From Saccharothrix sp. NRRL B-16348 (GTDB lineage: Bacteria > Actinomycetota > Actinomycetes > Mycobacteriales > Pseudonocardiaceae), in the NCBI RefSeq assembly GCF_001280085.1, contig NZ_LGED01000256.1:1-36400 (forward strand): 36,400 bases of DNA, written 5' to 3'. A model generated the notes under the pieces. The model was not told where the DNA came from, searched no databases, and saw only the letters and a program-made list of their open reading frames with translations. The position numbers were made by a program, and so were the translations under genes. Below, piece by piece: positions 13,937-36,339 of this stretch. Position 1 is the stretch's first letter. Each line of letters starts with the position of its first letter.

Positions 13937-14923
13937 TCAAGCCGTTCTGATCGGCTCCAGAAGGAGCTTCCGCACGGTACGGCGGGGACTGGCGGGGACG
14001 GGTGAGCCGAAGCCGATGCGCAGGACGGTCTGAGGTTCGAGGGTTCCGCCGAGGGCGCGGCGGAGCTCGTCGCGGACGGGACGCACCTCGATCGCCTGGG
14101 ACATGAAGGAGGCGGAGAGGCCGAGGGTGGTGGCGGTGAGGAGCACGCGTTGCAGGGCTTGGCCTGCTTGGAGTTCGGCGAGGGGTCCGTTGTAGAACGA
14201 GCACAGCACGACGACGAGCGGGTCGGATTCGTAGTCCTTGCCCGGTGGGCGTTCGGCGGCCTGGAAGTCGCGCATCGCCCACTCGTCCTGGGGCGCGGGA
14301 CGTACGCCGCCGGACGCGGGTGGGATGCCGTCGCCGGTTCGCGGGCCGGTCCAGTCGGTCAGTTCGGCCCGCACGTCCGGCGCGCTGGCCTGGATCCGCT
14401 GCGCCTTGGCCACGAGACCCTGCAGCCGGGCGCGTTCGTTCCGGTCGGTCACGACGTGCAGCCACGACCGCTCTCGTTCGGCGGCGCGTACCAGCGCGTG
14501 CCGGTGTTCGAGGGGTACCGGCACGTCCCGGAACGGCTTGCGGTTGGAGCGCCGCGTCGGGATCGCCTTGATCAGCTGCCGGGTCTCGTCGTCGAGGTCT
14601 CGGTGACCGCCTCGGCGGACCGTGGCCAGTGCTCCGGGTGCTTCGGCGCCCGGGACCAGGGTGACCAGGGGTCGGATGCGGTGGTCGCGCAGGGCGAGGC
14701 GGAGGTTGAACAGGGCCGCGCCGCACGACAGCCGCATTTCCCGGTCGTCGGGATCGGTGGCGGGCAGCCTGCGTGCCTGGTCGGCGTGCAGTTCGATCCG
14801 GTCGTGTGCGAGTCGGAACCGCCAGGGTTGGGTGTTGTGCACCGATGGGGCGAGCGTGACGGTCGTGAGCACGTCGGTCACCTCGTCTGCGGAAAGCCCG
14901 AGCACCTCGGTCACGTCTGCCAT
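13937..14923 (-). CDS. acg: Acg-family FMN-binding nitroreductase-fold protein
   Basis: 328 residues from the ATG at 14923, with AGGGA five bases upstream. The characteristic LAPSVHNTQPWRF motif lies near residue 27, followed by an internal duplication of the nitroreductase fold: RLSCGAALFNLRLALRD, PTRRSNRKPFRDVPVP, and late TTLGLSASFMSQAIEVRPVR then LRIGFG. It belongs to the Mycobacterium Acg (Rv2032/Rv3127/Rv3131) group, which binds FMN with a lid region and lacks ordinary nitroreductase activity. In mycobacteria these genes belong to the DosR regulon and Rv3131 adjoins devR-devS. Here it is divergent from the sensor kinase gene (140 bp between the starts), which supports the same regulation. 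Its 3' end overlaps a short open frame on the plus strand, probably noise. Confidence 0.85.
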   Translation of the reverse strand: MADVTEVLGLSADEVTDVLTTVTLAPSVHNTQPWRFRLAHDRIELHADQARRLPATDPDDREMRLSCGAALFNLRLALRDHRIRPLVTLVPGAEAPGALATVRRGGHRDLDDETRQLIKAIPTRRSNRKPFRDVPVPLEHRHALVRAAERERSWLHVVTDRNERARLQGLVAKAQRIQASAPDVRAELTDWTGPRTGDGIPPASGGVRPAPQDEWAMRDFQAAERPPGKDYESDPLVVVLCSFYNGPLAELQAGQALQRVLLTATTLGLSASFMSQAIEVRPVRDELRRALGGTLEPQTVLRIGFGSPVPASPRRTVRKLLLEPIRTA

Positions 14924-15000
14924 ATCGTCCCTGCCTACTTCTGCTGATCGAACCAACACCTCCACTGTGCGTCGCCGGGGAGCGGGAACACACGGTCGAA

Positions 15001-15021
15001 GGTCCCTTCCGAGCAGGGTCC
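15001..15021. promoter_or_regulatory. Possible DevR half-sites between acg and the kinase gene
   Basis: GGTCCC (15001-15006) and GGGTCC (15016-15021) are inverted half-sites in the divergent promoter region. They are less regular than the boxes at 17474 or 19869, but the element AAGGTCCCTTCC recurs in similar form at 17502 (AAGGTCCTTCC). Confidence 0.35.
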
Positions 15022-15063
15022 GGCGGACTTGGCCGCGTCTGGTGGTGGTGAGAGGCTGGTCCC

Positions 15064-16758
15064 GTGGTCGAATCTGCTGACGAGGAGATGCCGCACCGCC
15101 TGCTGGGTGGGTTGCGGTTGGACGAGTTGCTGGACGAGGTTCGGGAGCGGCTGACCGAGATCGCCTCGACCAGGGACAAGATGCAGGGTCTCCTGGACGC
15201 CGTCATCGCGGTCGGCGCGGGGTTGGAGCTGGATTCGACGCTGCAGCGGATCGTGCAGGCCGCCGTGGAGCTGGTCGGCGCGCGGTACGGGGCGTTGGGC
15301 GTGCTGGGCACCCAGGAGAACCTGTCGGAGTTCGTCTACGTCGGCATCGACCCGGAGACGCGGTCGCACATGGGGCACCTGCCGCAGGGCAAGGGCCTGC
15401 TCGGGCTGCTGATCAAGGATCCCCGGGCGATCCGGCTGCACGACCTGGCCGAGCACCCGGCGTCGGTGGGCTTCCCGCCGAACCACCCGCCGATGCACAG
15501 CTTCCTCGGCGTTCCGGTGCGGGTGCGCGACGAGGTGTTCGGCAACCTCTACATGACGGAGAAGATCGACGGCAACGACTTCAGCGCCGATGACGAGGTC
15601 GTGCTGACCGCGCTGGCCGCGGCGGCCGGCGTCGCGGTGGAGAACGCCCGGTTGTTCGAGCGGTCGCGGATGCGTGAGCGGTGGCTGGAGGCCACCGCGG
15701 AGGTCAACACTGAGCTGCTGGGCGGCGCTTCGGCCGACGACGCGCTTCGGCTGATCGCGCAGCGGACCCGTGAGCTGGCGGCGGCGACGATGTCGCTGAT
15801 CGTGCTGGTCGAGGGCGTGGACGGGCAGCGGTTGAGGATGGTCGCGGGCGTGGGTGAGCACGTCGAGGGCCTGCTCGGCGGTCTGCTGGCCGGTGCCGGG
15901 ACGGTCGTGGGGGAGGTGCTCGCCTCCGGCACGCCGATGCTGATCGAGGACCTCGATGGTCGGCTTGGTGACGCGCCCCTCGACGCGGGTCCGGGGGTCG
16001 CGGTGCCGTTGCGGGTGGGTTCGGCCGTGACGGGTGTGCTGCTGGTGGCGCGGGAGAAGGACGGCGCCCGGTTCGGTGCGGAGCAGGTGCCGTTGCTGGC
16101 GTCGTTCGCCGACCAGGCGGCGGTGGCGTTGGAGTTCGCCGAGAACCAGCGGGCGCGCAGGTTGGTGGACGTGCTGGAGGATCGGGACAGGATCGCGCGT
16201 GACCTGCACGACCACGTGATCCAGCGGTTGTTCGCCACCGGTATGAGCCTGCAGGGCGCGTTGGGTGCGATCCGCGAACCTCAGGTGCGGGAGCGGGTGC
16301 GCAAGGCGGTGCACCAGTTGGACGAGACGGTGCTGGAGATCCGTACGTCGATCTTCGACCTCCAGGCGGGCGACGACCTGCCGGGTCTGCGGCGGCGTCT
16401 GTTGGACCTGGTGTCCGAGCTGACGGAGAACGCGCCGGTCACGCCGACCGTGCGGATGACCGGGACGGTGGACAACTCGGTGCCCGACGACGTCGGCGAG
16501 CACGCCGAGGCGGTGGTTCGGGAGGCGGTCACCAACGTGGTCCGGCACGCCAGGGCGAAGGAGTTGGTGCTCACCGTGGAGGCGGGCGACGAGTTGACCA
16601 TCACGGTCGTGGACGACGGTGTGGGCATGCCGCCGCAGGTGGCCCGCAGCGGGTTGCGCAACCTCGAACAGCGGGCCGGCGCGTTGGGCGGTACCTGTTC
16701 GGTGACCGCCGAACCCGGCGGCGGTACCCGCCTGACCTGGCAGGTTCCGCTGGTGTGA
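15064..16758 (+). CDS. devS: Redox/oxygen-sensing GAF histidine kinase, DevS/DosT-like
   Basis: 564 residues from the GTG at 15064. A short helical lead is followed by GAF-A (about 45-200), GAF-B (about 222-360), a HisKA_3 dimerisation domain with [15 protein letters not shown] (phospho-accepting H382) and a HATPase_c domain ([26 protein letters not shown], then [15 protein letters not shown]). In [21 protein letters not shown] places H141 where Mycobacterium tuberculosis DosS has heme ligand His149, and Y163 (NLYMTEK) matches DosS Tyr171. The DosS Glu87 position is glycine here (ARYGALG, G79), as in DosT. A heme-based sensor of O2/NO/CO is therefore likely. The response regulator gene is convergent, four bases away. 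Confidence 0.9.
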
Positions 16759-35650: not shown

Positions 35651-35708
35651 CGTTTCCTCCTCGAATTCCGTCCACTTCGAGCGTCCACCCGGGCCGGTCC
35701 GCGGGGCA

Positions 35709-35722
35709 GGGTCCGAGGTCCC
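35709..35722. promoter_or_regulatory. DosR-type palindrome between adh and flavodoxin genes
   Basis: GGGTCCGAGGTCCC is nearly identical to the site at 19869 (13 of 14). It lies 59 bp from the adh start and 83 bp from the flavodoxin start. Confidence 0.65.
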
Positions 35723-35804
35723 GGGCGGGCAGGGCTGTTGGCCGCTGTCGACCGGTCCACGGGAGGGGCAGCGTGGTGAGGTGAGGTGAAAGGCGGTACC
35801 GACG

Positions 35805-36339
35805 ATGGCACGGGCACTCGTGGTCTTCGAATCCATGTTCGGCAACACCAGGGCGGTCGCCGAGGCGGTGGACGCGGGTTTGACGGAAGGCAGGCAGGTC
35901 GACGTCGTGGAGGTCGGCGAGGCTCCGGACGTGCTGCCCGAGGACGTCGATGCTCGTGGTCGGCGCGCCGACGCACGCGTTCAGCCTGAGCCGGGCGTCC
36001 ACCCGCAAGTCCGCCGCCGACCAGGCGACCGGTGAGCTGGTGTCGCGGGGACGCGGCGTGCGCGAGTGGCTCGACGCGCTCGCGCCTGTCGACCTCACCG
36101 TGAGCGCCATCGTGTTCGACACCAGGGTCAAGGTGGGGTGGGTGCCGGGCTCGGCCGCCAAGGCGATCACGAGGCGCCTCCGCCGGTTGCGCTTCACCGT
36201 CGGGCGCGCGCCGGTGTCGTTCTACGTCGGAAGCACCCCGGGGCCCCTGCTGGACGGCGAGACCGACCGCGCGACGGCCTGGGCTCGGACCATCCGAACC
36301 ACTAGTGTCCTGCGTCTGAAGTTCGTTGATGAATTGTAG
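35805..36339 (+). pseudogene. Flavodoxin-like protein, frameshifted, 3' end replaced by IS sequence
   Basis: Starts at the ATG at 35805 (AAGGCGG upstream). The first frame encodes RALVVFESMFGNTRAVAEAV, with the FMN-phosphate loop SMFGNT, and continues to VLPEDVD. The rest is one frame over: LVVGAPTHAFSLSRASTRKS, then DTRVKVGWVPGSAAKAITRR and VSFYVGSTPGPLL. One base is missing near 35949-35952 (GTCGATGCTC instead of GTCGAxATGCTC). Read in the second frame, the last residues (SVLRLKFVDEL, stop at 36337-36339) derive from the IS630 terminal sequence, which begins at 36303. The frameshift may be real or a sequencing error. Intact, it would be a low-potential electron carrier or a flavoprotein of the DosR-like island. 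Confidence 0.75.

Follow-up and report, generated by a model that had tools for sequence, protein, structure and literature searches.

As shown in Table 1, it was found that sensor, regulator, stress and fermentation genes lie together at positions 13937-35650 of the window, that is, the whole 36,400-nucleotide stretch of Saccharothrix sp. NRRL B-16348 (contig NZ_LGED01000256.1) analyzed in this study. Profile and PDB sequence searches with translated frames detected all of the genes named in a preliminary description of this DNA. Its Acg protein, DevS/DosT kinase, DevR, five Usp genes, OsmC, CBS protein, and P-type ATPase are real, and its phosphoketolase, AckA, PFL, and PFL activase were borne out by family profile matches. 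Some of the names need to be refined. The acyl-CoA synthetase is indeed a synthetase, but a GNAT acetyltransferase domain is fused to it, and one of the five Usp genes is degenerate. The ADH is an MDR-family zinc dehydrogenase, and no NCBIfam model among the matches listed for it is above cut-off. The supposed CtpF-like ATPase is a calcium-type P-ATPase, for which only the general ATPase_P-type model is above cut-off among the matches listed. The name RafH-like is fair but covers a part only: the 98-aa S30AE protein matches residues 10-92 of the 264-residue RafH, its sole PDB match at E 0.1, and the rest of the chain is absent, so that a full RafH was rejected. The broken flavodoxin-like frame has an open 170-aa copy at the same place in a relative (G088).

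Table 1. Genes and predicted DevR boxes of the segment (window coordinates)
Feature	Position	Strand	Evidence or remark
acg-type FMN oxidoreductase (Rv3131/Acg subfamily)	13937..14923	-	NF047509 313.6 bits, cut-off 199 (frame 13937-14965)
predicted DevR box, acg/devS	14992..15007	.	PWM 17.2, rank 2 of window
devS/dosT-type sensor kinase	15064..16758	+	two GAF, HisKA_3, HATPase_c
devR/osdR response regulator	16763..17416	-	PDB 3c3w DevR E 2.4e-86, residues 3-217
predicted DevR box, upstream of devR	17473..17488	.	PWM 22.6, rank 1
degenerate Usp, probably tandem	17519..18226	-	PF00582 37.9 bits, no stretch passing alone; sequence
tandem Usp	18412..19290	+	PF00582, two stretches, 189 bits
single Usp, here named uspB	19377..19814	-	PF00582 87.5 bits
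two predicted DevR boxes, uspB/uspC	19868-19883, 19919-19934	.	PWM 15.8, 14.5; ranks 3, 4
single Usp, uspC	20011..20487	+	PF00582 106.2 bits; heads run with overlapping ends
GNAT + NDP-forming acyl-CoA synthetase fusion	20484..23111	+	His432, His704 kept
OsmC-like protein	23108..23530	+	PF02566 54.1 bits
single Usp, uspD	23527..24000	+	PF00582 89.4 bits (frame 23389-24000)
two-CBS-domain protein	23997..24620	+	PF00571, two stretches, 105.4 bits
calcium-type P-ATPase, CtpF-like	24601..27111	+	family profiles; start uncertain
short S30AE protein, RafH N-terminal-domain-like	27168..27464	-	PF02482 33.6 bits; RafH 8whx E 8.7e-10
predicted DevR box, S30AE gene/xfp	27499..27514	.	PWM 13.6, rank 5
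phosphoketolase xfp	27602..29968	+	NF003619 1456.1 bits, cut-off 962
compact acetate kinase ackA	29968..31047	+	TIGR00016 339.2 bits, cut-off 293.4; overlaps xfp stop
pflA, PFL-activating radical SAM enzyme	31645..32373	-	TIGR02493 295.7 bits, cut-off 231.75; 3c8f E 1.2e-57
pfl, pyruvate formate-lyase	32370..34616	-	TIGR01255 1162.2 bits, cut-off 994.2; E. coli PFL 1h16
adh, MDR-family zinc dehydrogenase	34613..35650	-	PF08240, PF00107
predicted DevR box, adh/flavodoxin frame	35708..35723	.	PWM 12.9, rank 6
flavodoxin-like frame, broken in assembly	35805..36339	+	starts divergently from adh

The GAF-A domain of the kinase is nearest to DosT (PDB 2vzw, E 1.3e-60), followed by DevS (2y8h, E 5.8e-55). 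In the alignment, His141 sits in an NHPPM segment and is presumably the haem ligand; the kinase has a DosT/DevS-type GAF haem pocket, and its gene adjoins devR. The regulator is a DevR orthologue whose D55, K180, K183, and N184 correspond to D54, K179, K182, and N183 of M. tuberculosis DevR in a near-full-length alignment; I take these residues to be the phosphoacceptor Asp and the DNA-contact residues. Profile matches place Usp and Acg/nitroreductase genes near devR, as in a dormancy island. The genome holds two further DevR-like regulators.

Is the segment under the control of its own DevR? A box model (PWM) was trained on the devR promoters of five relatives, with the window left out. The training boxes were 9-of-10 core matches at most 100 bases upstream of the devR homologue in G088, G021, G034, G096, and G093, the last of which has a regulator only 60% identical to the window's DevR; three of the eight relatives (G016, G022, and G089) were excluded because they have no core match at that threshold. 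The six best model matches of the window all lie upstream of genes, in the five promoter regions of devR, acg/devS, uspB/uspC, rafH-like/xfp-ackA, and adh-pfl-pflA. Palindromic sites are thus predicted at devR and at neighbouring promoters, and the distance from box centre to presumed gene start is about 42 to 99 bases if xfp starts at about 27602. With the open frame of xfp beginning at 27500, the box at 27499-27514 was scored as inside this gene; the NF003619 match begins at residue 38 of this long frame, and 27602, downstream of the box, is the likelier start. At a score of 12 or more, the window has six boxes, whereas 300 simulated windows had 0.61 on average and never more than 4; these were first-order simulations of the whole window without codon structure. 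Six thresholds, 8 to 13, were inspected, and the two lowest gave no excess over the simulations (10 boxes against a mean of 7.2 at score 8; 8 against a mean of 4.6 and a maximum of 12 at score 9). None of the six best boxes is found at the tandem Usp genes (17519-19290).

The devR box, the adh box, and the second usp box (19919-19934) are identical in G088, while the first usp box (19868-19883) is not kept there. The acg/devS box is identical in G021 and has at least two changed bases in G088. In G088, xfp and the S30AE gene are separate, and core matches lie immediately in front of both. A tight box pattern, which was read off the window itself, has four matches in 10.9 Mb, three of them in the window, and none in the control; relaxed at one position, it has eight genome matches against four control matches. 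A loose core of the published OsdR consensus (9 of 10 positions) was rejected as evidence by itself: in the window plus 20 relative loci, it had 66 matches and its backwards control 60, and in 35 named actinobacterial loci the numbers were 103 and 79. This loose core has five matches in the 1,542 intergenic bases of the island (simulated mean 0.16, maximum 3 of 1000), none in its other 20,321 bases, and three in positions 1-13900. The 20-base M. tuberculosis consensus has a best match of 14 of 20 in the window.

Since the six best matches of the box model fall in five promoter regions, a DevR/OsdR-controlled hypoxia island is the most likely reading, and I consider it probable that the segment is a low-oxygen (or NO) response island of the DevR/OsdR type, controlled by DevR through the predicted boxes. 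From the conserved residues and box positions, I infer the following course of events. DevS, as a GAF-haem kinase, would sense the loss of oxygen and then phosphorylate DevR, which would bind the six palindromic boxes in the five promoter regions. DevR may thereby switch on devR itself, devS, acg, and uspB; the usp-gnat/acs-osmC-usp-cbs-ATPase run; the RafH-like gene with xfp-ackA; and adh-pfl-pflA with the flavodoxin frame. The Usp, Acg, and RafH-like products would protect and idle the cell. To my knowledge, the anaerobic survival of aerobic mycelial actinomycetes is poorly explained; if the above is true, fermentation and stress proteins are both driven by DevR, and the small set of genes and predicted boxes in the island lends itself to deletion one at a time.

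The regulator, kinase, Acg, Usp, and RafH-type proteins encoded here are homologous to members of the DosR/DevR regulon of M. tuberculosis, while the window differs in adding PFL, phosphoketolase, and AckA. The preliminary description had set the present grouping against the scattered genes of Mycobacterium; this contrast is not new, since a compact OsdR island, SCO0167-SCO0219, has been published for S. coelicolor. According to the available text of that report, the island likewise has a DevR/DevS-type pair, many Usp genes, a nitroreductase, and an alcohol dehydrogenase in one region, as well as palindromic boxes upstream of osdR and its neighbours, as predicted here (PMC5069765). Thus, the segment represents a type of gene cluster known in Streptomyces, with a richer content. 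By their published description, the Streptomyces islands differ in that PFL and PflA are full length here, that phosphoketolase-AckA, the GNAT fusion, OsmC, and the P-type ATPase lie inside the present island, and that the window has no nitrate reductase, narG being on another contig (C220). It had also been claimed that the whole regulon is packed here. The core of a DevR/DosR regulon does lie in one segment, its promoters have predicted boxes, and the grouping is seen again in relatives, but the claim is too strong for the whole regulon, since 12 of the 17 Usp-domain matches of the genome, as well as narG, are on other contigs. The present segment adds an intact PFL arm, phosphoketolase-AckA, and a GNAT-synthetase fusion retaining its histidine, in a genome without a phosphotransacetylase match. 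No description of this combination was found in the literature searched, a search that most subscription papers lay outside.

How might such a cell make ATP? The Cys-Cys and glycyl-radical segments of the window's PFL align with those of E. coli PFL (1h16), as do the active-site segments of the adjoining activase with its E. coli counterpart, and both proteins are above curated cut-offs. In contrast to E. coli PFL, the present one is linked to a DevR-type regulator, in a genome where the phosphotransacetylase profile PF01515 has no match; the same profile matches 10 of 14 control genomes. The lack of phosphotransacetylase was rejected as a mark of PFL carriers, since 87 of 100 family genomes have no match. 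The first profile match of AckA seemed to lack the N-terminus, a possibility ruled out by a three-frame reading, which gives a compact whole protein starting at 29968. As for the fluxes, I infer two routes to ATP without added NADH, one from phosphoketolase via acetyl-phosphate to AckA and the other starting from the acetyl-CoA made by PFL. Because the genome has no phosphotransacetylase match, acetyl-CoA would yield ATP only via an ADP-forming acyl-CoA synthetase; the genome has several candidates for this role, the GNAT fusion of the island being one of them. Thus, the gene content suggests phosphotransacetylase-free ATP production at low oxygen; if true, the cell would gain ATP from routes that need no such enzyme.

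The GNAT part of the fusion matches PDB 4u5y/4nxy (SlPatA), and the domain order of the fusion is that of the type II GNAT protein acetyltransferases (Pat), whose synthetase part is described as inactive for want of a histidine in the available text of a review (PMC8556138). I regard it as a serious possibility that the fusion is a protein acetyltransferase only, which makes no ATP, and that the PFL carbon leaves via other synthetases. The genome has five other PF13607 places, two of which, on contigs C157 and C78, retain the histidine; moreover, the fusion scores 386 with TIGR02717 (acetate-CoA ligase alpha), below the cut-off of 567. However, the fusion differs from type II Pat in keeping the catalytic histidine: His432 is present in the window, in 8/8 homologues of relatives whose match covers the site, and in all of the 30 top phylum homologues examined (window included), while a Pat-like paralogue on C157 is without it. 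Since the 30 top actinobacterial homologues keep this histidine, the result bears on the general statement about GNAT-synthetase fusions in the same review. That the fusion is an ATP-making synthetase is possible, and is proposed tentatively. A further scheme, which I consider quite improbable, combines PFL, phosphoketolase, and a bifunctional fusion into a DevR-run energy module with its own off-switch: the synthetase would make ATP from the PFL acetyl-CoA, and a build-up of acetyl-CoA would lead the GNAT domain to acetylate DevR Lys183 (corresponding to DosR K182), ending the response.

Is the association of DevR with fermentation genes common in the family? PFL was found in 12 of 100 family genomes, all 12 of which have a DevR homologue, and DevR homologues are far commoner (70/100); PFL is thus an accessory. 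In three of the 12 genomes, 365-576 kb separate PFL from the DevR orthologue, and in two more PFL is on another contig. This separation in 5/12 genomes and the xfp and adh boxes, which score lowest among the six, would fit a loose neighbourhood, in which a DevR core merely sits beside fermentation genes under another regulator. This is unlikely, since these two boxes still come fifth and sixth in the whole window, since the adh box is identical in G088, and since PFL away from DevR is still found among Usp or Acg homologues in G021, G034, and G031; G007, with no Usp near PFL, is an exception, and G059 was outside this comparison. Furthermore, as far as the available text reports, a putative PFL gene of S. 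lividans follows osdR expression, as do a PflA fragment and a gene labelled cystathionine beta-synthase (PMC6302529). Control of the fermentation genes by DevR is the preferred reading.

The preliminary description had also speculated that the segment is a transferable dormancy/anaerobiosis module, and it had named the absence of the grouping in every relative as something that would refute its reading. The grouping does recur in relatives, so the reading is not refuted on this count, but the order is shuffled and the content varied between congeners, and the grouping is sometimes split. A scan of 20 island frames gave no integrase, transposase, or other mobile-element family, and ARAGORN detected no tRNA in the window; on the right, the visible edge coincides with the end of the contig. 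The window's family forms one clade in the PFL tree (99) and one in the DevS+DevR tree (100), the latter with a warning of long branches, and neither shows the tree conflict expected of a mobile island. Movement between actinomycetes as a unit is hence very unlikely, in spite of the patchy distribution of PFL in the family and of 13 named loci from several actinobacterial families that have PFL near DevR/DevS/Usp and fall into one PFL clade (SH-aLRT 97). Since order and content differ and PFL can sit hundreds of kilobases from devR, the island does not move as a single unit, nor does it resemble an element that has moved recently. A contig profile scan gave 35 actinobacterial loci and 45 others among the best 80, as counted from titles. 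In Streptomycetaceae, Usp matches occur in the fetched PFL flanks of 9/9 loci of the island clade and 0/8 of the other PFL clade; the Fisher value of 4e-5 is too small at face value because the loci on each side are related.

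The island between positions 13937 and 35650 is a fuller version of an already described island type. In S. coelicolor, Urem et al. 2016 (PMC5069765) described an OsdR island whose genes include Usp, nitroreductase, dehydrogenase, and nitrate genes, together with a consensus box. In excerpts of a 2018 S. lividans study (PMC6302529), a putative pyruvate formate-lyase (PFL) gene is among the genes following osdR expression, as is a fragment of the PFL activase (PflA) gene, termed a putative pseudogene.

All genes listed in the preliminary description were placed inside the island with Pfam and NCBIfam models. 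The window is an entire contig (C255, 36,400 bases) of a 10.9 Mb genome. Gene ends overlap in uspC-gnat/acs-osmC-uspD-cbs, adh-pfl-pflA, and xfp-ackA, and the cbs gene and the ATPase frame overlap by coordinates. Judging from these overlaps, the three runs look like operons, the first one perhaps including the ATPase gene. Flavodoxin is an electron donor of PFL activase, and a flavodoxin-like frame is among the minor features tabulated below. The SLFN_AlbA_2 frame in the same table looks like a fragment.

The response regulator gives a gap-free alignment with residues 3-217 of M. tuberculosis DevR (PDB 3c3w, E 2.4e-86). The counterparts of D54, K104, K179, K182, N183, and T205, residues that matter in DevR, are all kept in the alignment. 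Acetylation of DosR K182 is described in an excerpt of one paper (PMC5999986). The first GAF domain of the kinase is nearest to GAF-A of DosT and DevS, and its HPPM histidine is residue 141. The same genome has two more DevR-like response regulators (C46:169942-170562 and C246:69609-70232), which are 63% and 57% identical to that of the window.

DevR-binding palindromes (boxes) were predicted with a 16-base palindromic weight matrix trained on the boxes found upstream of devR in five relatives and not on the window itself. The six top matches in the window lie at 17473 (devR), 14992 (acg/devS), 19868 and 19919 (uspB/uspC), 27499 (RafH-like/xfp), and 35708 (adh/flavodoxin), and none at the tandem Usp genes (17519-19290). 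At a score of at least 12, the window has 6 matches; none of 300 windows simulated to first order had more than 4 (mean 0.61). With the threshold lowered to 8 or 9, its 10 or 8 matches do not stand out from these simulated windows (at 8, mean 7.2 and maximum 16; at 9, mean 4.6 and maximum 12). Box 27499 was scored by the script as lying inside xfp, since the open frame starts at 27500. The xfp profile match starts at residue 38 of this long frame, and a start at 27602 is likelier. Compared with the window, the congener G088 has unchanged devR, 19919, and adh boxes and an altered acg/devS box, and box 19868 is not kept there; the acg/devS box is identical in the family genome G021. The congener also has core matches directly upstream of its separate xfp (L021:18673) and S30AE (L022:331) genes. 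At 4 other Usp loci examined with the model, no match exceeded 6.2. A tight pattern taken from the window's own boxes has 4 matches in the genome, 3 of them in the window, and 0 in the control. When it was relaxed at one position, 8 genome matches were found versus 4 in the control; thus, its 5 occurrences elsewhere in the genome are no more than expected by chance.

Is this grouping common in the family? PFL is present in 12 of 100 family genomes, own genome included, and in 4/4 of the genus. A DevR homologue (E 1e-78) was found in 70 of the 100 and in all 12 PFL carriers. By coordinates, PFL and the DevR homologue are at most 60 kb apart in seven carriers (own, G088, G016, G022, G089, G093, and G096), those near PFL in G093 being 60% paralogues. 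The distance is 365-576 kb in three (G021, G059, and G034), and two (G031 and G007) have them on different contigs. Usp homologues lie in the same or an adjoining stretch in 9 of 10 relatives with fetched PFL surroundings; G007 has none near PFL within 18.3 kb. The island genes of G088 are 65-95% identical to those of the window (lowest UspT, highest ATPase and Adh), and their order differs.

The wider survey covered the best 80 PFL loci listed in named genomes, with flanks of at most 10 kb per side; counted from titles, 35 are actinobacterial and 45 are not. Among these best 80, a DevR match of at least 58% or a DevS match of at least 45% was found at 8/35 actinobacterial loci (L042-L045, L047, L048, L061, and L073), and a DevR, DevS, or Usp match, excluding DevR matches below 40%, at 13/35. 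The sole match to DevR, DevS, or Usp at the 45 others is one 38% regulator (L092). In a PFL tree of 92 proteins built by a quick method, all 13 loci fall inside one 28-row clade (SH-aLRT 97), which also holds L041, L065, and L072 without such neighbours. Nine Streptomycetaceae PFLs belong to this clade, with Usp matches in 9/9 fetched flanks. Eight others, a second kind of PFL, fall in a separate clade (91; L051, L054, L056, L058, L063, L068, L070, and L094), with Usp, DevS, or DevR matches in 0/8 fetched flanks (two of these loci being cut to 12.3 kb and one to 17.2 kb). The window's family is a single clade within the 28 rows (99) and is also kept together in a DevS+DevR tree of 15 genomes (100), in which L061, L042, and L024 were flagged for long branches. 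These results favour long residence with local reshuffling over the moving block implied by the "transferable module" proposed earlier.

The scores of PFL and PflA exceed the curated cut-offs, and both proteins can be aligned with their E. coli counterparts, including the Cys-Cys and glycyl-radical segments. The narG gene is on another contig. No match to phosphotransacetylase (PF01515) was found in the genome, while 10/14 control genomes were positive; 87/100 family genomes, including 12/12 PFL carriers, are without a match. Thus, the acetyl-phosphate used by AckA would come from phosphoketolase, and PFL-derived acetyl-CoA cannot reach AckA via phosphotransacetylase.

The GNAT/synthetase fusion (20484-23111) carries the CoA-binding, succinyl-CoA-ligase-like, and ATP-grasp parts of an ADP-forming synthetase, and its TIGR02717 match is below the cut-off. 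Its His432 aligns with a histidine of 4-hydroxybutyrate-CoA ligase that the protein acetyltransferase 9it0 lacks. This histidine is kept in 9/9 homologues from fetched PFL/DevR loci whose matches cover the site (window, G088, G021, G022, G096, G034, G016, G031, and Sphaerisporangium; the site lies outside the L060 match). It is also kept in 30/30 fetched phylum homologues, window included, which are the top of the matches found in 139/296 phylum genomes. According to an excerpt of a 2021 review (PMC8556138), the synthetase part of type II Pat enzymes is inactive for lack of this histidine. Since the fusion group has kept it, unlike type II Pat, the group seems to be something else and is perhaps bifunctional. 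At three loci of other actinobacteria in the phylum sample (L136, L137, and L157), histidine-keeping GNAT-synthetase fusions adjoin Usp homologues. In the own genome, a Pat-like paralogue on C157 is without the histidine, two other synthetase matches (C157 and C78) keep it, and PF13607 has five places besides the fusion. Thus, the fusion is one candidate ADP-forming synthetase for PFL-derived acetyl-CoA, not the sole one.

Minor features inside and beside the island
Feature	Position	Strand	Remarks
Cold-shock frame, 341 aa	5665-6690	-	PF00313, four stretches, 266.9 bits
700-aa frame	6731-8833	-	Borderline sigma-70 region 2 match near end, 24.7 bits (cut-off 24)
AbiJ N-terminal domain 3 protein	8631-9752	-	PF18860, 196.1 bits
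SLFN_AlbA_2 partial frame, 97 aa	31138-31431	+	Between ackA and pflA; first part of domain matched, 31.3 bits
Flavodoxin-like frame	35805-36339	+	Beside adh-pfl-pflA; broken in present assembly, open copy in G088

To the left of the island, the cold-shock frame has its four domains in tandem, which is, to my knowledge, unusual for a bacterial cold-shock protein. The AbiJ-domain gene has a weak PADLOC match (PDC-M01A, 40.3 bits) and is a possible phage-defence gene.
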